A stretch of DNA of 24,037 bases from a virus, in IMG/VR virus record IMGVR_UViG_3300020281_000128, positions 1-24,037 of that record, one strand, 5' to 3'. Shown here in pieces: positions 8,836 through 21,500 of the stretch. The translations under genes and the position numbers were made by a program. The notes beneath the pieces were generated by a model, which searched no databases, was not told where the DNA came from, and saw nothing but the letters and a program-made list of their open reading frames with translations. Numbering within the stretch: position 1 is the stretch's first letter; each line of letters begins with the position of its first letter.

Positions 8836-10605
8836 TTATTGTAATGATTTCAAGGCAGCTATTTCTGCCTGTAAAGTATTTATTCGTGTTGACACCCTAG
8901 CTAGAGCATTCATTTGAACAGCAATAGGGTCATTAGATATATAGGCGTTTAAACTAGCCTCTTTGTATATTTGTTGCTGTTCTAAAATATTTATTGTTTG
9001 TAAAAACTCTAGGTTACCATCAGGTATTGAACCACCATCTAACTTTTTACTCTTATACGCTGTTAAATCTGGTGCTAGTTCATTCATTCCTTTTGATAGA
9101 ATAAATGAGGTCGCAGCTAACTGCTGGTCAACTCTTTTTAATTTAGCAGTTATCTTTTCTATAATCTTTTCTACTTTTTTACCTATGCTGTCAATGTCGG
9201 TAGTGGCAATCTTCCTGTCCTTGACAGATACATCTGTCTCATTTTCCAGAGTTTCGCCAGCACTCGCCGTCTCCTCTTGTCCTTCTGTTTCCTTATCTTC
9301 AGCCAATTCTGATTCATTAGATACAACTTCGCTCTCTTGTCCTTCCGGTTCTGTTGTCTCTTCATTTGTATCCATAGTTTTCTCTGTCTTAACGGTTTCA
9401 TTTGTAGGCTTTTCAGTAATAGCATTTGGTTCCTCTTCCTTTAGTTCTTCTTTTTTTGTTTCTTTAAGTTCTTCAGTTGGGGTTTCTTCTATTATTTCCT
9501 CTTTTGGTGCCGTCATTGTAGATACATTAGTTTCCTCCTTTACCATACCCATAGGTTTTAACTCTTCTATTATCATATTAGTTGCCTCTTCAAAGAATTC
9601 TTCCTCTGTTAAGTTCTCTTCTATTAAGGCAGTTCCAAATTCTTCTATTAAGTTTTCTTCTTTTAATATACTTTTAAAATTAACTTCAAATAATGCTTTA
9701 AATTCTATCTCTTCTATTTTTAATTCTTGTATTTCTTCTATCTCTATTAATTGTGGTGCAAATTCAAACGTTTCTATTTCTGTTAATTCTGTTAAATTAA
9801 TTTCTTGTAATTCTTCAATTGCAGCTTCAATAGTTTCCTGTGATAATTCTAATTGTTCGTTTGCAAATTCTATTTCTTCCTCTGTTTCTTCAGAAATAGG
9901 TGAGTAATTTATATCTAATAATGTGGCAGTTAAACTTGCACCTAATAAATTAGGACCAATAGAGGCAGTAGAGTTTGTGTCACCACCATCTGTACCTTTC
10001 CACTCCCATTCATAGTTTCTACTACCTGGTAAAGTGTTTGTTACCGTGTCTGTATATGTGTGAGTATTACCATAATAACCAGCGTCATTGTTTCTGGTAA
10101 ATGTGGTTACGGCAAGAAGATTGCCATTAGAATCTGTAATCTTAATTGTATTTGTATAAGTATCTCTTTGACCACCACCTACACCTGATTGACCACACCT
10201 ATAACTTGATGAAGTCCATTCACAATTCTGTACCTCTGTTATTGCATTTAAGGTTACACCACCATCTAAACTATCCGTTGTAGTTGTAAATGAATTGCCT
10301 GATTGTGTTGTAGTTGAGATACCAACAAGTGAACCAGTATCAGAAATGATACCCTCACCTTTTGCTTCTAGTTCGTTTGCAAATGCTTGAATACCACTAT
10401 CAATAGTAAAACCTTGACCTGAACCTACTTTATCAGGTGTATATGAGTCTGTTGTATTTTGATAAGATGATTGACCTGCGCCTGCATTAGGTAACAGGTT
10501 GCCAGATGTAGCTGTTTCTGCTAGACTATTTACGCTTACTAAAGTTGTAAGGGTTAATATCGTCAGCGAAGCTATCAATCTTTTTGTATAATTTGTAAGG
10601 CACAT
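8836..10605 (-). CDS. Large exported acidic protein of unknown function
   Basis: 589 residues. A clear Sec-type signal peptide (basic KR, hydrophobic LIASLTILTLTTLVSV, then a SLA cleavage site near residue 29) opens the protein. Residues about 30-220 are rich in Thr, Ser, Gly and Asn, with one cysteine pair (NCEWTSSSYRC) that could form a disulphide in the periplasm. Residues about 225-470 are extremely acidic, with runs of Glu mixed with Ile and Leu, then Glu/Thr/Ser. The last ~120 residues look helical (TAKLKRVDQQLAATSFILSK, then NILEQQQIYKEASLNAYI). No good Shine-Dalgarno precedes the ATG at 10605, and a short overlapping frame (10526-10654) crosses this start, so translation may be coupled. 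No enzyme family is recognised. An envelope or cell-exit role is a guess from context. Confidence 0.82.
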   Translation of the reverse strand: MCLTNYTKRLIASLTILTLTTLVSVNSLAETATSGNLLPNAGAGQSSYQNTTDSYTPDKVGSGQGFTIDSGIQAFANELEAKGEGIISDTGSLVGISTTTQSGNSFTTTTDSLDGGVTLNAITEVQNCEWTSSSYRCGQSGVGGGQRDTYTNTIKITDSNGNLLAVTTFTRNNDAGYYGNTHTYTDTVTNTLPGSRNYEWEWKGTDGGDTNSTASIGPNLLGASLTATLLDINYSPISEETEEEIEFANEQLELSQETIEAAIEELQEINLTELTEIETFEFAPQLIEIEEIQELKIEEIEFKALFEVNFKSILKEENLIEEFGTALIEENLTEEEFFEEATNMIIEELKPMGMVKEETNVSTMTAPKEEIIEETPTEELKETKKEELKEEEPNAITEKPTNETVKTEKTMDTNEETTEPEGQESEVVSNESELAEDKETEGQEETASAGETLENETDVSVKDRKIATTDIDSIGKKVEKIIEKITAKLKRVDQQLAATSFILSKGMNELAPDLTAYKSKKLDGGSIPDGNLEFLQTINILEQQQIYKEASLNAYISNDPIAVQMNALARVSTRINTLQAEIAALKSLQ

Positions 10606-10664: not shown

Positions 10665-11444
10665 TTACTTCGGTGGATTTTGTTTCATAAGGCTTTTTTT
10701 TTGAGCGTTCTCTTTCTCAACTGCCTCATCAACTTCATTCCACTCTTTACTTTCTTTCTCTTCTTCTAATTTTTTTAATTTTTCTTGTACTTTTTTTAGT
10801 TCTTCTAATCTAATTTTTTCTAGTTTCTTTGCTTCTTCTTTATTTGCTTTCTCAACTACTTTTAAATTCTTCACATACTGGTCATAATCTGGTCTTAACT
10901 TGTCGTATTTTTTCCATTGTTGAGTTGCAGCTTTACCAATTTTACCTTCAAACGGACAAGGTGTACCTGATTGTTCCATTGCAAAGAACACTCTAGGGTC
11001 TTGACATAAAATTGATACAGCAGCCACTTTCATACCAAGGTCATTTAAAACTTTTGATAACTTGATACGTTCACAATTCTCGTCTGTTGTATAAGTTCCA
11101 CCTGAAACACCTAAACCAAACGTTGATACACCAGCAGACATACCTACTACACATAAATCCTGGGACATTGCTGACATACTAGGTGCTGATGATTGAGAGG
11201 TAACTCTTGTATCACCAGAGTATGAGTTATTATTAGTTGTAGATGTGGTGTTAGAAGATGAACCACTTTGATATGTAGTGGTAGATTCTTGCGAATACCC
11301 ACCTGATATTGTAGTATTACTTCCTGATGTATTAGTTTGTGAGTTAGTCGTAGCCCCGCTAGAGGTAGTGTCAGCCCAAGCGACTTGTAGTGTTGTAAGT
11401 CCCATTACAAAGAATAATAAAAGACTAATTAATAGTCTATTCAT
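10665..11444 (-). CDS. Exported protein with S/T/N-rich linker and conserved cysteine domain
   Basis: 259 residues. A signal peptide (LLISLLLFFVMGLTTLQ, cleavage after VAWA at about 24) is followed by a low-complexity Ser/Thr/Asn/Gln/Gly stretch to about residue 85. A compact domain at about 95-175 has several cysteines (DLCVVGMSAG, ENCERIKLSK, SILCQDPRVFFAM, GTPCPFEGKIG), and then comes a highly charged Lys/Glu coiled coil to the end. I believe the cysteine domain recurs in other marine T4-like phages, but its function is not known to me. The first ORF after late promoter 11491-11498, it should be made late and exported to the periplasm. AAGGA lies about ten bases before the ATG. Confidence 0.85.
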   Translation of the reverse strand: MNRLLISLLLFFVMGLTTLQVAWADTTSSGATTNSQTNTSGSNTTISGGYSQESTTTYQSGSSSNTTSTTNNNSYSGDTRVTSQSSAPSMSAMSQDLCVVGMSAGVSTFGLGVSGGTYTTDENCERIKLSKVLNDLGMKVAAVSILCQDPRVFFAMEQSGTPCPFEGKIGKAATQQWKKYDKLRPDYDQYVKNLKVVEKANKEEAKKLEKIRLEELKKVQEKLKKLEEEKESKEWNEVDEAVEKENAQKKSLMKQNPPK

Positions 11445-11461
11445 TTATTCTTTATCCTTTT

Positions 11462-11488
11462 ATCAAGTGATTTATTTTTTCACTCAAT
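11462..11488 (-). promoter_or_regulatory. 5' leader hairpin after late promoter
   Basis: On the minus strand ATTGAGTGA and TCACTTGAT can form a nine-pair stem (two G-U pairs) around an A-rich nine-base loop. It starts two bases after TATAAATA, so it would sit at or near the very 5' end of the message for the exported S/T/N-rich protein. The AAAGGA ribosome site follows directly. It may protect the mRNA end or affect ribosome access. It is not a terminator, since no U-tract follows. Confidence 0.5.
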
Positions 11489-11490
11489 AG

Positions 11491-11498
11491 TATTTATA
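11491..11498 (-). promoter_or_regulatory. T4-type late promoter
   Basis: TATAAATA, the T4 late (-10-like) consensus recognised by gp55-bearing RNA polymerase, lies on the minus strand in the 59-base gap between genes, 47 bases upstream of the ATG at 11444. It reads TATAAATACTATTG, close to many T4 late promoters. It is followed at once by a leader hairpin. It would drive the S/T/N-rich exported protein and downstream exported and coiled-coil genes late in infection. Confidence 0.72.
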
Positions 11499-11503
11499 AT
11501 AGT

Positions 11504-11974
11504 TTATTCGTAAACTTTTTTTCTTTCGTAGGCCTGTTCGTGTCTGCCAAGTATTTCTAAAATTTCCCAACTTCCGTCATCTTTTATTCTTACTTTAGCG
11601 TCAACTTTGTCGCAAGTCATATTGTACACGCCATCTTTTTCTTTAGATTCTTTGTACTTTCTCTCTGCTTCTCTTTTATTTTTTAAGCAGTTCATTAAAT
11701 TTTCACTTGCTACGTGGTCTACTAATTTTCTTGTACCGTCTTCATCAACTTCAAAAATACATACTGCAAACACAACACCGTTTTCTGGTTCAGATGAAGA
11801 CTCAGCGTGTTCTTCTTTTAATATGGTTACGTGTTTATGTTTCTTTTCTATTGGGCAAACTTGATGACCGTCATCTCCACAACCTGTGCAATCTGCTAAC
11901 GCTTTAACTGCAAATAAAGATAAGAAAGTTAGTATTATAAAGTATGCGTAAACTATTTTAATTTCTTTATTCAT
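11504..11974 (-). CDS. Small exported cysteine-rich protein, paralog A
   Basis: 156 residues with a signal peptide (hydrophobic VYAYFIILTFLSLFAV, likely cleaved at ALA near 27). The mature N-terminus carries CTGCGDDGHQVC (Cys29, Cys32, Cys40) and a His/Lys cluster. A domain then follows with VVFAVCIF, ENLMNCLKNKREAER (Cys96) and NMTCDKVDAKV (Cys121). This domain aligns with the next upstream protein (11974-12309): both have GVV, EN[LI]xxCLKxKRxAxR and a later Cys followed by two residues and Val. Oxidised cysteine pairs in the periplasm are likely. The start overlaps the upstream stop (TAATG). The function is unknown; the CxxC could bind metal or be redox-active. Confidence 0.82.
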   Translation of the reverse strand: MNKEIKIVYAYFIILTFLSLFAVKALADCTGCGDDGHQVCPIEKKHKHVTILKEEHAESSSEPENGVVFAVCIFEVDEDGTRKLVDHVASENLMNCLKNKREAERKYKESKEKDGVYNMTCDKVDAKVRIKDDGSWEILEILGRHEQAYERKKVYE

Positions 11975-12309
11975 TAGTCAAGTACCTTTAATAATCTGAT
12001 ACCGTATTTTGATTGTTTATCTTCTTGTAATAAACCTTTTACAAGTTTACAAGAAAATATTACTCTCTCACCACCAACCTCTCTACTCGCTACCCTTTTG
12101 GATTTTAAGCATTGGCCAATGTTCTCTTTATATACCCACTCTATCATTTTACCGTTTAGGTGTAAAAGTAAAGCAACTACACCAGATTTTTCATACTTCT
12201 CACCGCCTGTATAAAGTTTCTGCGCTGAGACACTAGACATTAATAAACATAATATTAATGGTATCGCTATAATAAATGCTAATATGCTTGATTTATTGTC
12301 CGTTTCCAT
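11974..12309 (-). CDS. Small exported cysteine-pair protein, paralog B
   Basis: 111 residues with a signal peptide (ILAFIIAIPLILCLLMSS, likely cleavage after VSA at about 29). The mature part of about 80 residues holds SGVVALLLHL, then KENIGQCLKSKRVASR (Cys67) and VIFSCKLVKG (Cys87). It shares its core with the following protein (11504-11974) but lacks that protein's N-terminal CxxC extension. Two cysteines 20 residues apart suggest a disulphide-stabilised periplasmic fold. The ATG at 12309 lies inside the 3' end of the upstream coiled-coil gene, and its stop overlaps the next start. The function is not recognised. Confidence 0.82.
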   Translation of the reverse strand: METDNKSSILAFIIAIPLILCLLMSSVSAQKLYTGGEKYEKSGVVALLLHLNGKMIEWVYKENIGQCLKSKRVASREVGGERVIFSCKLVKGLLQEDKQSKYGIRLLKVLD

Positions 12310-12748
12310 TTTTAAATATTATCTCTCTGTTTGAATCCTTTAATTTTTCCACATCATCACGTAGGATTTTTACGTCTTCTTGTAAACGTTTGATGTTAAC
12401 GCCATTGTTCATCATTGACTCCATAGATTTCTGTATCTGTTCCACCTGTCCAGCAATGTGCTCAATTAACATAAATTGCTCCGAGTCGGCAGGTAAACTA
12501 CCCATTTCACCACGAGGCCATTTAATTCTAAATTCTGTATTTTTTTCCATATCAGCAGAAACCATTTCTACTGCCTGGTTTAAATCTTTTTCTAATAGTG
12601 TTGTGTTGGTTTCTAGTCGATTCAATCTCTCAATTATACCGAAATAACTCCACACTCCGACACCGACAGCTGCGATTATGGCAAGCATATTCCGTATCGG
12701 CATTGATACGGCAGTCGAGTCGCTTACATCCACTCTATCTTTACTCAT
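12293..12748 (-). CDS. Inner-membrane coiled-coil protein
   Basis: 151 residues. A short polar N-terminus is followed by one transmembrane helix at about 19-40 (IRNMLAIIAAVGVGVWSYFG), then heptad-like segments (ERLNRLETNTTLLEKDLNQA, then KRLQEDVKILRDDVEKLKDS) separated by a non-coil stretch with WPRGEMGSLPADSEQF. The expected topology is cytoplasmic N-terminus and periplasmic coiled coil. It starts inside the end of the Rz1-like lipoprotein gene (overlap of eight bases, ATGAGTAA), directly after the spanin pair, so a role at the envelope is likely. The Trp-Pro-Arg-Gly-Glu block is a useful search signature. The function is unknown. Confidence 0.82.
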   Translation of the reverse strand: MSKDRVDVSDSTAVSMPIRNMLAIIAAVGVGVWSYFGIIERLNRLETNTTLLEKDLNQAVEMVSADMEKNTEFRIKWPRGEMGSLPADSEQFMLIEHIAGQVEQIQKSMESMMNNGVNIKRLQEDVKILRDDVEKLKDSNREIIFKNGNGQ

Positions 12749-13121
12749 TATTATCCTCTTCGCTTTCGTAATATTGCTTATATTTATCTATCAGGTCATT
12801 TTGGACCTTTAACTGATTTCTAATTTTAGCAAAGTTTTTCGCTAGTAATTCAAAGTCTTTATCGGTGAGACCGAATAGCACAGGGTCAATACCATCTGCC
12901 TCTAGTTTCTTAAACACTTCTTCAGCATTTTCACTAGTTATAATATGCCAATATATCTCCTCCATTTGTAAAGGAGTTGGTTTTTCTAAATTCAAAGGTT
13001 GTCTTTTTACTTCTTGCTTAAATATCTCTAACTGCTTCACTCCAGCGCAACTAGTAAGGAGTATAGTTAGGGTTAGCAATACTAGGACATTCTGAATTGA
13101 TTTCAGACTTCTTTGTAGCAT
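12741..13121 (-). CDS. Rz1-like outer-membrane lipoprotein (putative o-spanin)
   Basis: 126 residues. A lipoprotein signal with basic N-terminus, hydrophobic VLVLLTLTI and lipobox LLTSC (Cys25, LTS|C) is followed by a soluble part with Pro-containing VKRQPLNLEKPTPLQ and a long helical region ending in acidic residues. Its ATG at 13121 lies inside the 3' end of the membrane-anchored coiled-coil gene at 13051-13521 in another frame, an overlap of 71 bases. A membrane-anchored coiled-coil gene overlapping a lipoprotein gene is the arrangement of Rz/Rz1 spanins, which fuse inner and outer membranes at lysis. It is longer than lambda Rz1. Assignment rests on lipobox plus overlap, not on residue similarity. 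Confidence 0.75.
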   Translation of the reverse strand: MLQRSLKSIQNVLVLLTLTILLTSCAGVKQLEIFKQEVKRQPLNLEKPTPLQMEEIYWHIITSENAEEVFKKLEADGIDPVLFGLTDKDFELLAKNFAKIRNQLKVQNDLIDKYKQYYESEEDNNE

Positions 13122-13521
13122 TTAATTCTTCCTCTGTTAGAGGCGACCCACTTGCAATTTCCATACATCTACCAGCGTTATCGCCACCTTTATTAATTAT
13201 TTTTTCCATTACTTTAGACCTTTCAATAGAGATTTTACCAATATCTCTTTTGCCTTTATTAAATCTCTTATCAAGGTCATTTAAATCTTTCTTTAATACC
13301 TCTACTAACTTATTCATTTGATTGTTAGCATTTAGTATTTCTTTAAAATCTTTTTGTTGATTTTCTATAAGTTGTTTTTGGTCTGATATAGCAGACTCTA
13401 ATTTAATTGCATTTGCTTTTAACGTTGCGTTATCAGCTCTTAATTTAAATACATAGGCGCCGGCGCCGGCAAGGCCGGCAACCATAACACCTATCATAAT
13501 CATTCTCATACTACCAAACAT
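13051..13521 (-). CDS. Rz-like inner-membrane coiled-coil protein (putative i-spanin)
   Basis: 156 residues. One N-terminal transmembrane helix at about 6-25 (RMIMIGVMVAGLAGAGAYVF) lacks a cleavage site. A periplasmic coiled coil follows to about 105, then a C-terminal part with two cysteines, Cys119 (AGRCMEIASGSPLTEEE) and Cys145 (NSECPSIANP). This layout, with paired cysteines after the coil, matches Rz-type i-spanins. The Rz1-like lipoprotein gene starts inside its 3' end. The predicted function is final disruption of the outer membrane together with that lipoprotein. No endolysin or clear holin is visible nearby. Confidence 0.77.
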   Translation of the reverse strand: MFGSMRMIMIGVMVAGLAGAGAYVFKLRADNATLKANAIKLESAISDQKQLIENQQKDFKEILNANNQMNKLVEVLKKDLNDLDKRFNKGKRDIGKISIERSKVMEKIINKGGDNAGRCMEIASGSPLTEEELNATKKSEINSECPSIANPNYTPY

Positions 13522-13522
13522 T

Positions 13523-13633
13523 TTATTTTTTCCAAAACTTTAGTTTCTTTGCCATAGCAGCTACGTCTTCAAACTTTTCATTGACGTACCAACCGGCAAT
13601 AAAACCTACAATAAATCCTATTGTTGTAAACAT
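13523..13633 (-). CDS. 36-aa single-pass membrane protein
   Basis: A tiny frame reading MFTTIGFIVGFIAGWYVNEK and ending KKLKFWKK. It has one hydrophobic helix with small-residue packing motifs (GxxxG-like GFIVGFIAG) and a basic amphipathic tail. It fills precisely the gap between the DUF1353-like gene (stop at 13635) and the Rz-like gene (start at 13521), and a good GGAG sits seven bases before its ATG. Coding is therefore likely despite its size. It lies directly upstream of the spanin pair, so a small membrane partner or holin-like role is possible. I recall similar short proteins in marine T4-like phages but no function. Confidence 0.75.
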   Translation of the reverse strand: MFTTIGFIVGFIAGWYVNEKFEDVAAMAKKLKFWKK

Positions 13634-13634
13634 A

Positions 13635-14219
13635 TTAGTCTCCTATTTTTACGTTTCTTTTTCTATGACCATTCCACGCAACAAAGCCACCTAATCTTAA
13701 TGACCAGTATGCTAGATAATTCATAAGGTAAAAACCGTTAACGTTGATGTTTATATCTCTAAAGATTTCGTCAGCTCTCTTTTGAGATATTTTGCCTAAC
13801 GTATCTCTTTTATTTTCTCTCAATAATGTTTCATACTTATAAGCATAGTCGTGAACAAGTCCACCTAATAGTAATACACCAACTGGTGAAAAAAATGTTC
13901 TTAAAAATTTTGGTATACTAGCACCATCAAATTTAAAACCAGCAGGTATTACATATTTGTTTCCGTTTAATACGTATGTAAAATCGTTTGTTAGTTCCCA
14001 ATTTCTAGTACCTAATAACCACATAACTATTGCTTTAAAAAAACCTTTGCCTTTTGTTTTAATAGGTAAAGGTTTTAAATCTGGCATTGATGTGTATGCA
14101 AAAGTATAACATTTTGGTTTCTTTCTATCAAATAAGTTGATAGCAAAACCTAATATTACAAATGCAATTAACAATGACCATTGCCAAAATTTCATTGCTA
14201 AACCAATTAATAGTTCCAT
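13635..14219 (-). CDS. DUF1353-like membrane protein
   Basis: 194 residues. A membrane helix lies near the N-terminus (about 13-30, WSLLIAFVILGFAINLF). The body has a beta-rich part (DFTYVLNGNKYVIPAG), the signature FKFDGASIPKFL (about 95-106) and VHDYAYKYE (about 122-130). The DGASIP and HDY motifs are typical of the DUF1353 family, found in many phages near lysis or tail genes and of unknown biochemistry; the Asp and His pattern suggests a metal or catalytic site. An arginine-rich C-terminus closes it. It begins one base after the preceding gene's stop and heads the run of membrane-associated genes. Confidence 0.82.
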   Translation of the reverse strand: MELLIGLAMKFWQWSLLIAFVILGFAINLFDRKKPKCYTFAYTSMPDLKPLPIKTKGKGFFKAIVMWLLGTRNWELTNDFTYVLNGNKYVIPAGFKFDGASIPKFLRTFFSPVGVLLLGGLVHDYAYKYETLLRENKRDTLGKISQKRADEIFRDININVNGFYLMNYLAYWSLRLGGFVAWNGHRKRNVKIGD

Positions 14220-14220
14220 A

Positions 14221-14730
14221 TTAATCCTTACTTTTTTTATTTGTATCTATATATGTCTGATAAACTTTATGTGCCTGACCAAGTTTCTTTTTCTTTTCAG
14301 GATCCTTTGCTCTTTCACTTGCAACTTTAGCTCTCTGCGACATTGCAATTGCAGCCTGCATTTTGTGAGCGTGTGTTTTACCAGAACCTTTTATTTTACT
14401 TACAGACTTTCTGGCAGTTTCGCCATCTGTAAATCCTAATCCGTGAATTGTTCCTTTAGGATTTTCATCTGTATATAAGTCAGAGTGTTTATCTGACCCA
14501 GCAGGTTGACCTTTTTTTCTCGGCACTCTTTTAGTATCATTGTTAAGACTACCCAAAGGTTTATAAGTGCCTATGCCTTTACCGCTTCTGTAATTGGCAT
14601 TTAAACCGACTGCTCTTTTTGACCTATGTTGAGAACCTTTAGGTGGTTTATCACCTAAACTAGCTATAGGTGCCATATGAGATATAGGACCTATACTGAT
14701 ACCTGCTAGATATTCTTTTAAAGTTTTCAT
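14221..14730 (-). CDS. Putative capsid-targeted basic virion protein
   Basis: 169 residues, strongly basic and without membrane segments. The N-terminus MKTLKEYLAG resembles the T4 capsid-targeting sequence MKTYQEFIAE found on T4 internal head proteins. A Gly/Lys/Arg/Pro-rich stretch follows. The C-terminal region reads DENPKGTIHGLGFTDGETA, KTHAHKMQAAIAMSQRAK, then a Lys-rich helix. The latter block recurs, to my knowledge, in head-associated proteins of marine T4-like phages. Its ATG overlaps the stop of the preceding gene (ATGA). I infer an internal head or DNA-associated protein delivered with the genome. No clear gp21-type cleavage site is seen, so the targeting inference is weaker here. 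Confidence 0.75.
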   Translation of the reverse strand: MKTLKEYLAGISIGPISHMAPIASLGDKPPKGSQHRSKRAVGLNANYRSGKGIGTYKPLGSLNNDTKRVPRKKGQPAGSDKHSDLYTDENPKGTIHGLGFTDGETARKSVSKIKGSGKTHAHKMQAAIAMSQRAKVASERAKDPEKKKKLGQAHKVYQTYIDTNKKSKD

Positions 14731-15101
14731 ACTTTTGATTTCTCTCTAATACTTTTTTTAACTTCAGGTTCTTCTATTTTTATTTCTTCTCTGATAACAC
14801 CTGAAAGTTTATCAATTTTTTCATCTAATTTATCTAAAGTATTTAGAACACCCTTTAAAACTACATTATTATTATCATTGTTTTCTTTTATTTTAGCACC
14901 AAACTTTTTCATAATTGTTCTTCTCATAAGTTCTTCAGTATCTTTTTCATTATCTTTTTTATATTTGTTATGAGATTTAGTTAATGGGTGTTTAGCATTA
15001 GGCGCCATATCTACACCGCCGTGTGCTACTGCGTTTGTTGGTGCGTCTTCATCAATCTTGTTGATGATTTCATCCATCATTTCTTTATAATGTTTGGGCA
15101 T
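14727..15101 (-). CDS. Putative virion protein with prohead-type N-terminus
   Basis: 124 residues, hydrophilic. The N-terminus MPKHYKEMMDEIINKIDE is a helix ending in IDE|DAPTNAVAHGG, which fits the T4 prohead protease (gp21) pattern [L/I]xE followed by cleavage. An APTN/APN sequence follows a similar site in the protein at 16379-16585. The middle is Lys/Asp/Asn-rich, and the C-terminal third has a predicted coiled coil (LDKLDEKIDKLSGVIREEIK). It overlaps the upstream gene by 17 bases and the downstream gene by four. It is likely a small head-associated protein or processed scaffold element; the exact role is unknown. Confidence 0.75.
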   Translation of the reverse strand: MPKHYKEMMDEIINKIDEDAPTNAVAHGGVDMAPNAKHPLTKSHNKYKKDNEKDTEELMRRTIMKKFGAKIKENNDNNNVVLKGVLNTLDKLDEKIDKLSGVIREEIKIEEPEVKKSIREKSKV

Positions 15102-15567
15102 ATTCTGTCTCCGATACTAGTTCGTCACCTCTTTCATAAACGTCAATACCAAAACAAGTCATATACGGCTCTTGTTCAATATTTAATTCAGGTATTTCTC
15201 CTTCTTCTTTCAATAGTTTATCATACAAATTATTTTCTTTTAAGTATGATATAACACCTGACTCTATTGCGTCTTTATAATTGACATAACTTTTGTCTTC
15301 TTTTATTAATAATGCTAATGCAACTGCAAAAGAACCTAGTTTACTACCAAGTCCGACTTTTTGTAATATACGTTTTAAATTAAACACAAATCTGTGAAGA
15401 AGAGTATAATGTTTCTTATCAGATTGTTTAATTACATTTCTATATTTAATTAACACCTTACCTTTTTCATCAATAATGCCTCTTTTAAATGCCTCTGTTT
15501 TGTTAAACGGAGTTATAAGCATTTTGATAACACGATAAGTTATTAAAAAATCAATACCTCTAGCCAT
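15085..15567 (-). CDS. Conserved marine T4-like phage structural-type protein (160 aa)
   Basis: 160 residues starting MARGIDFLITYRVIKMLITP. A conserved N-terminal part (FNKTEAFKRGIIDEKGKV), HYTLLHRFVFNLKRILQKVG, and a helical SFAVALALLIKED are the recognisable blocks. The C-terminal third is acidic (EGEIPELNIEQEP). From memory this type occurs in many T4-like cyanophages and pelagiphages among virion genes. Fold and role are unknown to me. No signal peptide or clear membrane span is present. It overlaps the upstream gene's stop by one base, so it is likely co-translated with the 120-residue partner. Confidence 0.82.
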   Translation of the reverse strand: MARGIDFLITYRVIKMLITPFNKTEAFKRGIIDEKGKVLIKYRNVIKQSDKKHYTLLHRFVFNLKRILQKVGLGSKLGSFAVALALLIKEDKSYVNYKDAIESGVISYLKENNLYDKLLKEEGEIPELNIEQEPYMTCFGIDVYERGDELVSETEYAQTL

Positions 15568-15929
15568 TATAGTTCCTTAAGCATTTGCGTAATTGTTTCA
15601 TCTTCATCCACATCTTTTAATTCGTGTGAGTAAAGATATCCTAGATAACCACAAACTGATTTTAGTATTGGCCAGTAAACTTTATCTATCTTAAATAATA
15701 ATAAAGTCATACAAGCGTCAGCACCAAAAACATTATTTAATAATATAATATGGTTTAAAATTAATCTTATTTTTATTTCACCAGTTGTCTCATACTTACG
15801 AAACAACCTTTTAAGATACTTAAACCTTTTAATATCATCATTAAACTCCTCTTGTTTTTCAAGAGTAGGGTTGTCGTAATTTTGTAAAGCATACAACAAC
15901 CAGTTCTTATTGGTTATCTGTTCAAACAT
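15567..15929 (-). CDS. Conserved marine T4-like phage protein (120 aa)
   Basis: 120 residues, mostly helical. Recognisable blocks are NWLLYALQNYDNPTLEKQEE, FNDDIKRFKYLKRLFRKYE, IKIRLILNHIILLNNVFGAD and KVYWPILKSVCGYLGY. I recall close relatives in marine T4-like phages next to the partner encoded at 15085-15567; the conserved pairing suggests that the two act together, probably in virion assembly. Its ATG directly follows the stop of the upstream gene, with no gap. No catalytic motif is seen. Confidence 0.82.
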   Translation of the reverse strand: MFEQITNKNWLLYALQNYDNPTLEKQEEFNDDIKRFKYLKRLFRKYETTGEIKIRLILNHIILLNNVFGADACMTLLLFKIDKVYWPILKSVCGYLGYLYSHELKDVDEDETITQMLKEL

Positions 15930-16367
15930 TTACACTAATTTAGCGTAAACTTTAGACATTCCCGTTTTTAATGTTTCGTACTCTACTTGAAGTTTTAAAC
16001 CACCTTCTTTTCTATGAGAAATACCATCATCATTAATATCGGAACCATCTGTGTCCTTGCCAAATCTTCCTCCGCCAAATTTTACTTCGGCTGTAAAGTT
16101 ACCTTTATCACCAGTAGTTTCTTGAACAGGTACAAAAAGACCTATCTTCATTAAGTTGTTTCTAATTTCTTCAACAGCTTGTTGAGCATTCATATACTCT
16201 TTCATTGCTGTGCCACCTAGAAACCCATTAACTCTTTTTAAAACTTCCGGGTCGTGAATGTTATGAACACCAATAGAACCATCTTCAAAAGAGGCAGCGT
16301 CAGGAGTTCCAACGTGACCACCGTCAAGTGTTTCTTTGATGTTAATATGTTGTTTAAAAGTTTTCAT
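15930..16367 (-). CDS. Putative capsid-targeted virion protein (145 aa)
   Basis: 145 residues. MKTFKQHINIKE matches the T4 capsid-targeting pattern closely (MKTYQEFIAE) and ends in IKE|T, a candidate gp21 cleavage site. The mature part has a Gly/Asp-rich region (DGGHVGTPDAASFEDGSIG), a helical block (DPEVLKRVNGFLGG, then NAQQAVEEIRNNLMKIGL), and a beta-like C-terminus with Gly repeats (VKFGGGRFGKD) ending in LKLQVEYETLKTG. I recall similar proteins in marine T4-like phage virion gene clusters. The inferred location is inside or on the head. Confidence 0.8.
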   Translation of the reverse strand: MKTFKQHINIKETLDGGHVGTPDAASFEDGSIGVHNIHDPEVLKRVNGFLGGTAMKEYMNAQQAVEEIRNNLMKIGLFVPVQETTGDKGNFTAEVKFGGGRFGKDTDGSDINDDGISHRKEGGLKLQVEYETLKTGMSKVYAKLV

Positions 16368-16378
16368 ATTACCTTTCC

Positions 16379-16585
16379 TTATTTGTATTTGTCTGATTTC
16401 TTTTTCGTTCCGTCTGAACGAGCAATCAAACCCTTTGCTTTAAGGTGTGCCTTATCTGTGAAACCTGCCTTACCTGCTTTATAACGTTTCATTGCGTCAG
16501 CAGTATTAGGAGCTTTCTCACCTAAAACATCTTCCTCAAAGTCTTTCAAATTCTCATCTTCTATAAAAGATTTAAATTTTTTCAT
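16379..16585 (-). CDS. Small basic putative head-associated protein (68 aa)
   Basis: 68 residues. The N-terminus MKKFKSFIEDENLKDFEEDV is a targeting-like acidic helix, with a possible processing site LGE|KAPNTAD at residue 23. The remaining 45 residues are Lys-rich (MKRYKAGKAGFTDKAHLKAK), ending in KKKSDKYK, and are suited to DNA binding inside a capsid. Its ATG at 16585 overlaps the stop of the coiled-coil gene (16582), giving ATGA. The function is inferred from composition and neighbours only. Confidence 0.75.
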   Translation of the reverse strand: MKKFKSFIEDENLKDFEEDVLGEKAPNTADAMKRYKAGKAGFTDKAHLKAKGLIARSDGTKKKSDKYK

Positions 16586-16803
16586 TTTTTCTTTTTATCG
16601 TCCTTCTTCATTAATTCTTTTTCACGTTCAGTTGCTTTAGTTATCATATTTGTAGCAAACATAATAGCACCATTCAAAGCATTTAAATTACTTTTCATAG
16701 CGCCTAAATCAACTTCTACTTTTTGAATATTTAATTTCATTTCATTGAAATCTTTTTGTAAAGAAGTTCTTTCAGTTTCTAATTCTTTAATTGATATAGA
16801 CAT
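16582..16803 (-). CDS. Small coiled-coil virion-type protein
   Basis: About 73 residues from MSISIKELETERTSLQKDFN. I chose the ATG at 16803 because GGAG lies six bases before it; a longer frame from 16857 would overlap the upstream gene and lacks such a site. Heptad-like residues run through the middle (KLNIQKVEVDLGAMKSNLNA), and the tail is Lys-rich (KKDDKKKK). It could be a chaperone or assembly factor for the fibre-like protein encoded just upstream, but nothing in the sequence proves this. Confidence 0.75.
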   Translation of the reverse strand: MSISIKELETERTSLQKDFNEMKLNIQKVEVDLGAMKSNLNALNGAIMFATNMITKATEREKELMKKDDKKKK

Positions 16804-16820
16804 TATATACTCCAATCTTA

Positions 16821-17279
16821 TTATGCTGTTGTTCCAGTATTTGCAAGAATAAACCAAGCACCACTTTTGAACATTAATGTAGCAGTTTTACCTTCGCCAG
16901 ATAAAACGACACTTGTATGTCCTCTTAAATTCGCTGGTGTTATTGTAGCTGCAAATGAACCAGATGATGATGTATTTAAAAACATTTTTACCTGACCATC
17001 AGCGCCGTTTGCTAATGTTATTGTTCCTGCTTGATTCGTTGCGTTGATTTCAGTAATTGCTGAAGTTAAGTCAGCGACTGATTGTGTTGAACCGTCAGTA
17101 GTAATTGATTGTGAAGATTGCTTTAATCCTAACCAAGTTGGTATATTATTAAAGATAGAGCTTGCACTTACTTTTTTATTGATTGGTGTTCCGCTTGGGT
17201 CATCCACTACGTGGAATAAATCAACGGAAGCTAATGCGTTACCTAAATCGGTAAGCTGTGTGATTTTCTTATCTGCCAT
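16821..17279 (-). CDS. Virion structural protein, fibre/decoration-like
   Basis: 152 residues starting [20 protein letters not shown] then [20 protein letters not shown]. This N-terminal block is common in tail-fibre-like or virion proteins of marine T4-like phages. The rest is Thr/Ser/Gly/Ala-rich with short beta repeats ([38 protein letters not shown]), typical of a beta-structured attachment or decoration domain. It has AGGAG at a good distance and its own T4-type late promoter at 17348-17355, so strong late expression is expected. A short GC-rich hairpin lies in its leader. Classification as a structural protein is likely; tail versus head location is unknown. Confidence 0.82.
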
Positions 17280-17295
17280 TTTTTTCTCCTATAAA

Positions 17296-17307
17296 CCCCT
17301 TATGGGG
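17296..17307 (-). promoter_or_regulatory. Short GC hairpin in the leader of the fibre-like gene
   Basis: The minus strand reads CCCC-ATAA-GGGG, an unusually GC-rich tetraloop hairpin in this AT-rich genome. It lies just before the AGGAG ribosome site of the gene starting at 17279 and after late promoter 17348-17355. It may stabilise the message or modulate translation. No U-tract follows, so it is not a standard terminator. Confidence 0.4.
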
Positions 17308-17347
17308 AATGCTATTTGTACCAGTTGATACAATCACTTTGTTAATA

Positions 17348-17355
17348 TATTTATA
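17348..17355 (-). promoter_or_regulatory. T4-type late promoter
   Basis: TATAAATA on the minus strand, 69 bases upstream of the ATG at 17279 and directly downstream of the terminator-like hairpin 17357-17379. It lies in the largest intergenic gap of the window (17280-17394). The expected product is a late transcript starting with the fibre-like gene and running into the small virion genes. A weak bulged hairpin (17323-17338) follows it. Confidence 0.7.
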
Positions 17356-17356
17356 A

Positions 17357-17379
17357 GGGCAGGAACATAGTCCCTGCCC
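17357..17379 (-). terminator. Terminator-like hairpin after the 96-aa structural gene
   Basis: The minus strand reads GGGCAGG-GACTATGTT-CCTGCCC, a seven-pair GC-rich stem (extendable by G-U and A-U pairs to a five-base loop), followed by TTATAAATATATT. It begins 15 bases past the stop codon of the gene at 17395-17685. The tail is only partly U-rich, and it merges with the next late promoter, so termination and re-initiation are placed back to back. Confidence 0.65.
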
Positions 17380-17394
17380 CTATGTTATTGATTA

Positions 17395-17685
17395 TTAAGC
17401 GTCAGCTGAATTAGTCAATGCGACCAATGTCTCAAACTGGACTCTTCCTGCTCTACCACCAGAACCAGTTGTTTTTAGGTTCCAGCCTGCGTGTGCAACA
17501 GCACCAGATTGTGTTTCTGTGTCTTTAAAATTAAAAAGACCCATAGTAACCCCTGATATGAAGTTGTCAGCAGTTGTATCACCGAATAAATCAGTTCTAT
17601 TTGCTGAGCTTGGTGTTTTTTTGATGTATGCTACAGCCCACAAAGGTGCGCTAGCAGCAGCGTCTGTATTACTCCAAGATGACAT
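17395..17685 (-). CDS. Abundant-type virion protein (96 aa), single-gene late unit
   Basis: 96 residues starting MSSWSNTDAAASAPLWAVAY. It is rich in Ala, Thr, Gly and Asn, with beta-type blocks (NFISGVTMGLFNF, GAVAHAGWNLKTTGSGGRAG) and ends RVQFETLVALTNSADA. I recall near relatives as virion proteins in marine T4-like phages. It has its own late promoter (17741-17748) and a terminator-like hairpin directly after it, and a strong ribosome site (AGGGAGAG). This arrangement suggests a highly expressed protein needed in many copies, such as a capsid decoration or tail-sheath-associated subunit. That role is inferred. Confidence 0.8.
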   Translation of the reverse strand: MSSWSNTDAAASAPLWAVAYIKKTPSSANRTDLFGDTTADNFISGVTMGLFNFKDTETQSGAVAHAGWNLKTTGSGGRAGRVQFETLVALTNSADA

Positions 17686-17713
17686 AGTATTCTCTCCCTT
17701 TAAGTTAAATTAT

Positions 17714-17739
17714 TGGTACTCAATTCTTAATATGTACCA
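17714..17739 (-). promoter_or_regulatory. 5' leader hairpin after late promoter
   Basis: TGGTAC (17734-17739) and GTACCA (17714-17719) form a perfect six-pair stem with a 14-base AT-rich loop on the minus strand. It begins one base after TATAAATA, so it would be at or near the 5' end of the transcript of the 96-residue structural gene. This repeats the arrangement at 11462-11498. Confidence 0.5.
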
Positions 17740-17740
17740 C

Positions 17741-17748
17741 TATTTATA
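17741..17748 (-). promoter_or_regulatory. T4-type late promoter
   Basis: TATAAATA on the minus strand between the HAD nucleotidase gene (stop at 17762) and the 96-residue structural gene (ATG at 17685), 55 bases from that ATG. It is noncoding, correctly oriented and followed by a hairpin. It separates the early-looking nucleotidase from the late structural unit. Confidence 0.72.
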
Positions 17749-17761
17749 AGAGATTACTATT

Positions 17762-18238
17762 TTATATTAGTTTTTTGAGAAGTCTGATAGTTCTTGAAGT
17801 ATCGCCATTATGAACAACACCTTGTCCACCTCTAGCTCTAAATTCATTGACGTTTTTAGGATAATCGTCTATCAGTATTGAGTTCTTATCTGCGTATTGT
17901 TGTTTTTGAACACGCTTAACAAGATTGATTCTATTTGAGGCAATGCCAAGATTTCTTGACGCCCAAGATTTTTTACCAGGTATACAATTCTTATCGTATA
18001 TATCTTCTACATACGCTGATAAAATTTCTGTATCGTAATTTTTTAAAAAGTTCCAGAGTTGTTTACCACCTGGATTCCAAGGTAATGTAGACCAAAAATC
18101 TTTCTTTGATTTAATTTGACCCCATTTTTCTGACTTACTGCCTTGAGCCCAAACATCTATCTTCTTGCCGGTTAGTTTCTCAGCACCTTTTACAAAGTCG
18201 CATAAGACACCATCCATATCACAATAGATTTTTTTCAT
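17762..18238 (-). CDS. HAD-superfamily 5'(3')-deoxyribonucleotidase-like phosphatase
   Basis: 158 residues. HAD motif I is YCDMDGVLCDF with the nucleophile Asp7 and acid/base Asp9. Motif II is near ILSAYV, a Lys-containing motif III is in LVKRVQKQQYAD, and motif IV is ILIDDYPKNVNEF with paired aspartates. A Trp-rich cap (FWSTLPWNPGGKQLWNF) is typical of the NT5C-like nucleotidase subfamily. It probably dephosphorylates nucleoside monophosphates during nucleotide recycling or pool control, complementing the reductase. It has its own sigma70-type promoter with extended -10 and an AAAGGA ribosome site, unlike its late-promoter neighbours. The substrate is not proven. Confidence 0.87.
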   Translation of the reverse strand: MKKIYCDMDGVLCDFVKGAEKLTGKKIDVWAQGSKSEKWGQIKSKKDFWSTLPWNPGGKQLWNFLKNYDTEILSAYVEDIYDKNCIPGKKSWASRNLGIASNRINLVKRVQKQQYADKNSILIDDYPKNVNEFRARGGQGVVHNGDTSRTIRLLKKLI

Positions 18239-18261
18239 AGTGTTTGTCCTTTCATACTAAT

Positions 18262-18289
18262 ACTATAACACATATCAAACAAAAGGCAA
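18262..18289 (-). promoter_or_regulatory. Predicted sigma70-type promoter with extended -10
   Basis: The minus strand holds TTGCCT (18284-18289), 16 bases, then TATAGT (18262-18267), with TG one base before the -10 (extended -10, TGTTATAGT). The predicted start is about 17 bases before the ATG at 18238, leaving room for AAAGGA. It occupies the 60-base gap after the 97-residue gene. Confidence 0.65.
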
Positions 18290-18298
18290 GCGCTTTTT

Positions 18299-18592
18299 TT
18301 ACTTATTATAGTTGATTTTTGGCTCAGTTTCAACAGGTGTTTTTTCTTTTCCTGTCATTGTCTCTTTAGACTTTGCTTTCATTTTCTCGTCTGATTCTGC
18401 TTTTGCTTTATATTCTTTATCTACTTTGTTAAAGAAATCTTTTTTTTCTTGGTCAGACATTGAAGCAATACCTTTGCCAGTTTTTTTAAGTTGTTTTTTA
18501 AAGAATTGTGAATAGGCGTTATCTTTTAAATGCTTAGATACTTCATTAATAGATGACTCTAAACTACCTTCTTTTGATTTAAAATATGACAT
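18299..18592 (-). CDS. Conserved hydrophilic protein (97 aa), head-associated type
   Basis: 97 residues starting MSYFKSKEGSLESSINEVSK. The middle (SQFFKKQLKKTGKGIASMSD, then QEKKDFFNKVDKEYKAK) is a helical block that I have seen repeated in marine T4-like phage virion proteins (FxxxLKK...KKxFFNxVDK). The C-terminus is Lys/Glu/Thr-rich and disordered. Its ATG overlaps the stop of the 1203-residue gene by one base, indicating co-expression. No catalytic motif. The role in the head or DNA packaging complex is inferred from the neighbours. Confidence 0.78.
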   Translation of the reverse strand: MSYFKSKEGSLESSINEVSKHLKDNAYSQFFKKQLKKTGKGIASMSDQEKKDFFNKVDKEYKAKAESDEKMKAKSKETMTGKEKTPVETEPKINYNK

Positions 18593-21500
18593 TATTTTCC
18601 CTTTACTTGTTTTGCTAAATCTTTATCAGCACCACCCCAAGTACCACTTGATTTGGTTACAAATGAATTAACACGAGCTAAAGCCCATTGTACTTGCGTT
18701 GCGCCTGGTCTATGACCGCCTCGCCAAGCTGCCATACCTCTATCATAAACTTTTTTCAATACACCATAAGGCATACCAGATTTTTCTGCCTTCTTTTTAA
18801 CAGCAGCAATACTCTCATATACAGCAGCCGCTGGGTGGTCTTTTTGTTCTTTTCTTGGTTTCATACCTTGTTTTTTTAACCTTTCTATATCAGCTTCGCT
18901 AGGAGCATTTTCTTTTTTAACAGGTGGATTATTTCTACCCATTTTGTCAATTGTAAAACCTTTCTTTCTCAACTCTTGAGCTTTCTTTTGTATATCTTGT
19001 AAAGTTTTACCACCTTCAAAACCTGCGTGTTTACCGTGTTTACTATAAGAAATCATAAAAGGGTCTATTGCTTCAGGCACACAATTTGGTACCTGTTTAT
19101 TACCTTTCTTTTTCATACCTACTTGTTTGTATCCTGTCCAACAAGCTTCGTCTATATCTTTTTCACTAACTTCTTCTTTAAAACTTCCCATTGGTCTAAA
19201 TGTGGTTACTTTATATCCCATTTTTCTAACTGCAAGTTTTGATTCTGAACCACTTGATACAAATGGTATATTTGCTTTTGCTAATTTTTTAAGGTCTGCC
19301 TCTTTAAACTTATCTAATATATTCATAAGTTGTCTTGCTCTAGCAGCATTAATTGTTTTACCTCTAAAAGGTTCGTATTCTCTTTTTAGAATAGCAATTT
19401 GTGATGATGATAAACCTTCTTGTAAATTTTCTTCTTTCTTTAAAATCTTATCTGCAATTTCGTGACCTTTTTTAATTGTTTTCTTTTGTAAAGGTGGTTC
19501 ATCATTCATTACTTTTTTAGCCTGCGCCATACCTATTGCGTAAGCGTCATCTTTTTTCATTTCATTTTTCATAGCTTTCTCTAAACTTTTTGCCTGTTTA
19601 TCGTGTGCCGATACAGACTTTTTAAGTTGTTTTATAATAGGTTTAATTGTTTTTTCATCATCTTTATTTAAGTCTTCTCTTCTATGTTTCTTTTCTTGTA
19701 ATATTCTACCTACGTAATCTAATCTACTTTCATTCTTTTCTGAATTGTCATTTAAACTTACTAGTGAAAGTCCAGATTGAATTTTGCTTATTAACTCTTG
19801 CATATCTTCTATTGAAGCCATTACTTGTTCTTTTTTATATTCCCATTCGTCACCGTCTCTTTCGCTAAAATAAGCAGCATATTGATTTAATTCTTCAAAA
19901 CGGTCTTTTAATTGGTCTCTACGTTTTTTATTTTTAATATTATCAAGTAAGCTTGAAAAATTATCGTTTTCTTCCGAGAATATATCTGAATACATTGTCA
20001 TACTTTCTATAACATCAGGTCTAAATGCTTTAGAACCAGAACCGGCACTTGAACCAGGACTTCCTTTAGTAGGATCCGATGCCGCCATATCTCTAAATTC
20101 AACACCCCATCTCCTTATATCATTGCCAAGTTCACCAAAAACTTTATTGCCTTGTTTTTCATAATCATAACCATCGCCTTCAATTTTGTCAAGTATCATA
20201 TCGGACATTTTATCAAATTCTTCAATATTTTTTTTAACTTTTAATGGTTTGTTTGTTAACTCTGCGACTTTATCTTGTATCTCCATCTGTATTTCATTTT
20301 TAGGAGTATCATCTTCAATTTGAGCCATAATACTTTCTAAATCTTCTGCAACTTCACTCTCACCACTTTCTCTAGCAAATTCAATAGCGTCTTCAATAGA
20401 GCTTGGGTCATTATAATCAAAAGAATTGTCTATCATATCTCCTATTTTCTTTTTAGGTTTTCTAGTATCAGGAGAGTTACCTTTTTTCTTAACTAATTTT
20501 TGTAAATCTTTTATTCCGTCAAAAGCCATTTCTAAACCAGCGGTAACGCTATCTGATTTTGTATAACTATCGTGGTCACCATTTTCGTCCCAACAATACT
20601 CAAATTCAAATGCAATATCTTCAAGTTTTCTCTGTATCTCTTCATCATTAACTTCACTTGCTACGTCCATTAATACGGAAGAAATTTGCTCTGTGCTTTG
20701 AATTGTGCTTAAAACTTCGTCTTTAAAACCTCTCATTGAGTTTTGCATACCTGAACCACGTACACCTTCAACTTCATTTGCTTTTGCCATATCAACCAAT
20801 GTTTTTCCTAATGGTAATAAATCATTTGCTAGTTGGTCTAAATTATTCGGACTATATTCTTGTTTGTTAAATAATTCCATTTGCTTATCAGCAATTTTCA
20901 TTTTTTCTATATCTTTTGCTGGTTTGCCACTATATTTTGCTATCATATCTCTAAATGCTGATTGTGCTTTGTTGGGTTCCATTTCTGCAACATAACTACC
21001 AACATCTTCAAGGTCATTCATAAATTCATCATCTAGTCCCATTTCTCTTGCTTTATCTATGATAGGGTCAAAAGAAAACTCATCATCAAAATCTATTTCA
21101 ATTGAATCGCCATCTTCATTTTCTAAATTACCTTTATCTAGGTCTCTTAAAAAGTTTCTTGCTTTAACTTTAACATCATCAGCTTCTTTTGGTTTACTCT
21201 TTTTACCCGCTTTAGGTTTTTTAGATTTAGGTTTATCAGACTTTGGTTCATCACCTTTACCTACTGCAACTAAACTATCGCCTTTAGATTTATGAGTTAC
21301 CTTACCATCTTTACCATAACGACCAAACTTCATATAGTCCAGACCCATTGCTTTTGCCTTATCGCCAGCAGCCGACTCTGTCATATCTTGCATATCTAAT
21401 TCATCTTCTTTAAGTTTAGGTTTATCAGCGCCTAGTTTAGCAATTTCATCTGAACGTTGTTTTTGCTCTTCTTCTTTTTTTTCTTTTTCCATCTTTTGCT

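Follow-up and report, generated by a model that had tools for sequence, protein, structure and literature searches.

The three hairpins that accompany late promoters in this stretch of viral DNA are likely to be parts of three different cis-acting leader RNAs, each located behind a genuine T4-type late promoter. The calculations show conservation, covariation or pairing statistics; transcript starts, read-through transcription, binding of a protein and any influence on translation or decay are inferred. The stretch analyzed, hereafter the window, is an AT-rich virus record of 24,037 bases in which the minus strand carries nearly all genes. The original prediction had described a hairpin at each of the three sites and suggested that such a structure at the 5' end could protect late messages from decay. 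Hairpins are indeed present at all three sites, but they do not follow one shared rule, and structured leaders belong to individual genes and do not characterize late mRNAs as a whole. Site 2, which had been ranked as the weakest of the three, is the best of them by covariation and contains what is apparently an undescribed, strongly conserved leader RNA.

Late promoters in the window and its relatives

The window comes from a T4-like myophage, of which it covers a fragment, and has a relative in Pelagibacter phage Mosig, to whose primase its own primase is 77% identical. The annotation of Mosig, also a T4-like myophage, includes gp55-, gp33- and gp45-like proteins (annotated as late sigma factor, accessory protein of late transcription and sliding clamp), and T4-type late promoters are therefore expected in this lineage; the window fragment itself lacks these genes. 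An earlier prediction of pelagimyophage late promoters with a method developed for cyanophages was reported as unsuccessful (PMC7029224).

The exact octamer TATAAATA is found four times in the window, always on the coding (minus) strand. Three copies are intergenic, at site 1 (11491-11498, minus strand), site 2 (17348-17355, minus strand) and site 3 (17741-17748, minus strand), while the fourth lies inside nrdA (4964-4971, minus strand) and is not expected to be a promoter. When any one of these intergenic regions is shuffled with its dinucleotides preserved, the octamer turns up by chance in only 4-5% of the shuffles. Across 395 related loci (4.5 Mb), we located 619 TATAAATA sites ahead of same-strand genes, representing 53 families. 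Once near-duplicates were removed, base 6 after the octamer was A in 60% and G in 20% of cases (a purine in 80%) and C in 2%. Since this preference fits the start position of T4 late transcripts, approximately one helical turn from the octamer (PMC2988020), base 6 was taken as +1, which places the expected starts at 11485, 17342 and 17735 for sites 1, 2 and 3, respectively. The claim of T4-type late promoters is thus supported by the position of TATAAATA upstream of late genes, by the gp55, gp33 and gp45 relatives in Mosig and by the purine at base 6. To our knowledge, no transcript 5' end has been mapped in any pelagimyophage, and the +1 positions used below are those that we infer from this pattern. 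These results reveal clear T4-type late promoters in the pelagimyophage clade, whose hosts are among the most abundant bacteria of the ocean.

A conserved two-hairpin leader at site 2

The promoter of site 2 is followed by a conserved leader RNA of 68 nt (17280-17347, minus strand), which scores 83.8 bits with the covariance model built for it (R1). Hairpin H1 (17316-17333, minus strand) consists of the covarying arms 17333-17327 and 17322-17316, and hairpin H2 (17296-17307, minus strand), a CCCC/GGGG stem, stands just ahead of the ribosome site, where the Shine-Dalgarno sequence AGGAG (17286-17290, minus strand) is predicted to be open in the late RNA (0.88 unpaired). The bulged hairpin originally placed at 17323-17338 lies instead at 17316-17333, and the GC hairpin noted near the ribosome site corresponds to H2.

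By folding energy alone, site 2 is unremarkable (p=0.07-0.13), and it is the comparison of 35 relatives, whose leaders align through conserved flanks and differ in their stem sequences, that reveals the structure. Double-sided changes affect six of the seven pairs of H1, with up to four pair types per position. Pairing is kept in 94.1% of the pair cells, compared with 68.2% in shuffles, and the 85 double-sided changes observed compare with 26.7 in shuffles, a count matched by none of 500. When the partner is slid by 1-3 bases the signal is destroyed (1-23 double changes in the slid controls), and RNAalifold recovers the same H1 unaided. The sequence and loop of H1 are free to vary. The joining sequences, that is, UGAU before H1 and then AGUAG, the U next to it and CC, hardly change among otherwise divergent leaders, with a conserved GUGAU preceding H1 and AGUAGCAUUCC coming after it. 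At the base of H1, the window has an A where nearly all relatives have G. The sequence around the base of this hairpin (GAU opposite AGUA) may resemble a bulged-G, or sarcin-ricin, module, in which the A of the window would occupy the bulged position.

With the covariance model, each contig gives a single match, which lies where expected, immediately before the same gene. The leader of the isolate HTVC008M (40.6 bits), whose H1 stem is unrelated, occurs once in that genome, and the leader is also single-copy in two large contigs. A motif-first scan of IMG/VR, in which flanking sequence alone was used and the protein was not, returned 43 model matches, corresponding to 32 distinct leaders after identical ones were collapsed. 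The codons for MADKK come directly after the leader in 31 of these 32, and the start was not resolved in the remaining one. Phage Melnitz possesses the site 2 gene with no clear leader motif. Some leaders have extended, long H2 stems (e.g., L550 and L570), and others (L128, L141 and L399) have additional strong hairpins upstream of the conserved leader, separating it from the promoter region, as exemplified by GAGGGTACTCAGTACCCTC in HTVC008M.

Like the cis-regulatory families of Rfam 15, the site 2 element is a short structured 5' leader; however, the window matches none of the curated covariance models at E<=1, the Rfam search of Mosig gave no match to these leaders, and we found no relevant description of a pelagiphage leader RNA in the literature. 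A leader RNA without an Rfam family has thus become searchable by covariance model.

The gene behind the leader (16821-17279, minus strand) encodes a protein of 152 aa with a spike- or fibre-like beta domain. Because this predicted domain resembles the head domains of tailspikes as well as T4 gp9 and a capsid spike, the product is probably a virion surface protein. Downstream genes in the same direction include Rz-like spanins. On its other side, the promoter is abutted by an 11-bp GC stem (17356-17380, minus strand) without a full T run here, which we call only terminator-like because no intrinsic terminator was found by consensus in 16700-18700. In 98% of the members of the site 2 family, the 40 bases that precede the promoter fold with an MFE of at most -8, and in some relatives (L120, L104) a T run follows the stem.

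Regarding function, the stems would present the conserved GUGAU and AGUAGCAUUCC ahead of an open ribosome site. On this basis, the leader may serve its operon as an operator to which a protein binds or as an element that sets translation, a proposal to which we give slightly less than even weight. A more specific version, which we advance tentatively, is that it constitutes a new class of phage regulatory RNA, present in widespread marine T4-like phages, with two hairpins and a bulged-G-like (sarcin-ricin type) internal loop at the base of H1, through which a protein of the phage or the host would adjust the output of a late virion-and-lysis operon. Alternatively, the leader could be a mere structural spacer or stabilizer that keeps the ribosome site open and has no protein reader, as the 0.88 openness in the late RNA and the free variation of the H1 sequence and loop might suggest; we judge this rather unlikely, since the near invariance of UGAU, AGUAG, U and CC goes beyond what a spacer needs. 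Nor would a purely protective hairpin need conserved unpaired sequence.

Predicted alternative folding at site 3 and leader stems at site 1

The site 3 region (17686-17761) contains the inverted repeat TGGTAC...GTACCA (17714-17739, minus strand), with a folding energy of -7.5 kcal/mol (p=0.05). The repeat exists as described, but late mRNA is not expected to begin with it, since the expected start (17735) falls within its 5' arm. The original prediction had counted starts inside the stems as evidence against it, and here such a start is expected. RNA beginning at +1 would retain only the last two bases of the 5' arm, and folding from this point leaves nothing (-1.9, p=0.65), so the late mRNA would lack the repeat hairpin. 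The same pattern is seen across the family, in which the fold signal is present from the octamer and absent from +1 (-1.35 vs -1.41 in shuffles).

The repeat acquires a different meaning in RNA that reads through from upstream. The preceding gene (17762-18238, minus strand), a 5'-3' deoxyribonucleotidase-like gene of PHROG 2643, runs in the same direction, and no terminator was found between it and site 3; the upstream gene of site 3 promoters ends in LKKL at 92 of 124 sites. In the predicted fold of the read-through RNA, the anti-Shine-Dalgarno TCTCTT by the promoter (17748-17753, minus strand) pairs with 17695-17700, covering the region of the Shine-Dalgarno GGGAG (17694-17698, minus strand), and the inverted repeat forms the apical stem. 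Computed over 42 relatives, the openness of the ribosome site is 0.26 in read-through RNA; it rises to 0.38 on shuffling of the 5' part and to 0.55 for late RNA (p=1e-5), and in the window the values are 0.12 for read-through and 0.32 for late RNA. In none of the other families tested was the ribosome site significantly less open than in the shuffled control; it either did not differ from that control or was more open. Complementarity to the Shine-Dalgarno sequence is 7.3 adjoining the promoter, compared with 2.6 and 2.3 further upstream.

Among 18 aligned relatives, picked from those with the repeat or a close form of it, the two helices are paired in 81% and 89% of cells. Double changes occur at only two pairs, and the helix that contains the Shine-Dalgarno sequence cannot covary because that sequence is invariant. 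L022, L025, L046 and similar relatives have the promoter without the stem, and the 3' half of the repeat (GAGTAC) is a conserved sequence also in relatives that lack the repeat. The idea that structure and not sequence is kept holds for site 2 and, weakly, for site 1. The gene behind site 3 (17395-17685, minus strand) encodes 96 aa, for which structure prediction gave no usable fold (pLDDT 43.9).

These predictions suggest a mechanism in which read-through RNA from the nucleotidase gene would form a long stem hiding the ribosome site, with a 5' arm containing the anti-Shine-Dalgarno sequence, TATAAATA and GTGGTAC. Given T4 start spacing, late RNA would begin inside this arm, could not form the stem and would be translated. 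Together with the readings of sites 1 and 2, we regard it as probable that site 3 is a translation lock of the kind found at T4 e, soc and I-TevI.

At site 1 (region 11445-11503), the inverted repeat is present: a 10-bp stem after the octamer (11461-11489, minus strand) folds at -7.9 kcal/mol (p=0.004), and RNA starting at +1 (11485) still forms a 6-bp stem between 11485-11480 and 11470-11465 (p=0.019). Under T4 spacing, site 1 would be the only one of the three with a stem at the extreme 5' end. A second stem (11407-11455, minus strand) closes the start codon, which is predicted to be 0.15 unpaired. The pairing register of this second stem shifts between relatives, which makes column covariation unsuitable, and a swap test was used instead; a 5' noncoding arm matches the coding arm of its own sequence better than the coding arm of a relative (p=0.004). 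The start-codon stem occurs in relatives with different sequences. For the 5'-terminal stem few relatives are alignable and several have no stem, and at the corresponding position Mosig carries another stem, AATGTCAA/TTGACATT. This stem lies inside a long palindrome (Mosig 140300-140420, or L167:40300-40420) that encloses the late promoter of the site 1 homologue and has a smaller hairpin within it. The gene behind site 1 (10665-11444, minus strand) encodes 259 aa with an apparent signal peptide and belongs to PHROG 20531. Elsewhere in the window, 8836-10605 encodes a 589-aa protein without a PHROG or Pfam match, whose one partial phage match is in Mosig.

The short terminal stem of site 1 could slow 5'-end-dependent decay, and the second stem would lie over the start codon. 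Among the three sites, it is only here that 5' protection is plausible, and we regard it as possible.

Leader structure across late genes and comparison with known systems

A general hairpin behind late promoters is not supported by the survey. In 31 of the 53 late gene families the median leader is shorter than 38 nt, too short for a hairpin, and among 165 non-redundant long late leaders, folding surpasses that of shuffles (p<0.1) in 33-36%, compared with 25% of other intergenic stretches. The signal is strong in the site 2 and gp32 families, moderate in the site 1 family and absent in several others. Stems beginning within +1 to +3 exceed shuffles only in the site 1 family, hsp20 and gp32, where they reach p<=0.05 in 44%, 60% and 30% of leaders, respectively. 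T4 likewise gave no general excess that would make it a carrier of such a rule: 20 rows from T4 loci, in which two places occur twice, listed minus-strand sites are left out and two further places without a locus are missing, gave a folding value of -3.76, compared with -3.68 in shuffles.

Two of these families lie outside the window. The gp32 leaders (L167:7635-7706 and L319-L398) have a 4-bp stem that starts after two bases, keeps all its pairs despite 25 double changes and is followed by open sequence. In the hsp20 leaders (L402-L481, with the L402 start codon at 106; Mosig 8441-8367), a bulged stem that covaries starts at +1. They also carry UUGCU opposite the Shine-Dalgarno sequence, and the resulting UUGCU/AGGAGG stem, which covers the ribosome site, is reminiscent of ROSE-type thermometers; these leaders have no Rfam match.

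The explanation offered at the outset, namely that each of the late mRNAs starts with its hairpin and is protected by it against RppH and RNase E-type decay, is in keeping with the preference of RppH for single-stranded 5' ends and the stabilization of mRNA by 5' stems, as in papA (PMC3997798), as well as with the +1 to +3 stems of the site 1 family, hsp20 and gp32, the latter two covarying. As an account of all three hairpins it is nevertheless improbable, because the site 3 hairpin is lost if the RNA starts at +1, H1 of site 2 begins about ten bases in, and such stems are not in excess in the remaining families that have five or more long leaders.

Chance pairing in AT-rich intergenic DNA might be invoked for energies near p=0.05-0.13 at sites 2 and 3, and the TATAAATA inside nrdA is a warning that a non-promoter copy can also be followed by a hairpin: a perfect 5-bp hairpin (p=0.22; 4945-4971 together with the octamer), kept in Mosig with the coding sequence and probably due to chance, lies a few bases behind it. 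For the promoter sites we consider chance very unlikely, as it is refuted by covariation at site 2 and opposed by the conserved pairing at site 3. That the repeats act as DNA, as palindromic repressor or activator sites by the promoter, is the most improbable reading of all: the site 3 repeat does span the expected start, and an operator overlapping its late promoter allows I-TevI to repress itself (PMC2988022), but the stem sequences of the three sites are unrelated, and the up to four base-pair types per position in H1 could not be tracked by a sequence-reading DNA-binding protein.

The preferred reading of three distinct leader RNAs has precedents. The papA-type stabilizing stem-loops resemble the stems of site 1 and hsp20, which likewise start at the expected first transcribed base. 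In T4 e, soc, I-TevI, segB and mobE, a stem masks the ribosome site and its 5' arm contains the late promoter (PMC2988022, PMC3014915), and late RNA starts too far downstream to form that stem, as predicted for site 3. The site 3 stem differs from these hairpins in that it is predicted, precedes another gene in another phage lineage and is absent behind the promoter of some relatives. If correct, it would be evidence that the T4 arrangement of a late promoter inside a ribosome-hiding stem is common to distant marine phages. The autogenous operator of T4 gene 32 consists of a folded 5' element and, after it, unfolded sequence that includes the ribosome site (PMC535899), a layout that the marine-phage gp32 leader shares, with a covarying stem. 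Site 2 is similar to this operator in being a leader-encoded element dedicated to one gene, and unlike it in having two hairpins and preceding a putative virion gene without known nucleic-acid binding.
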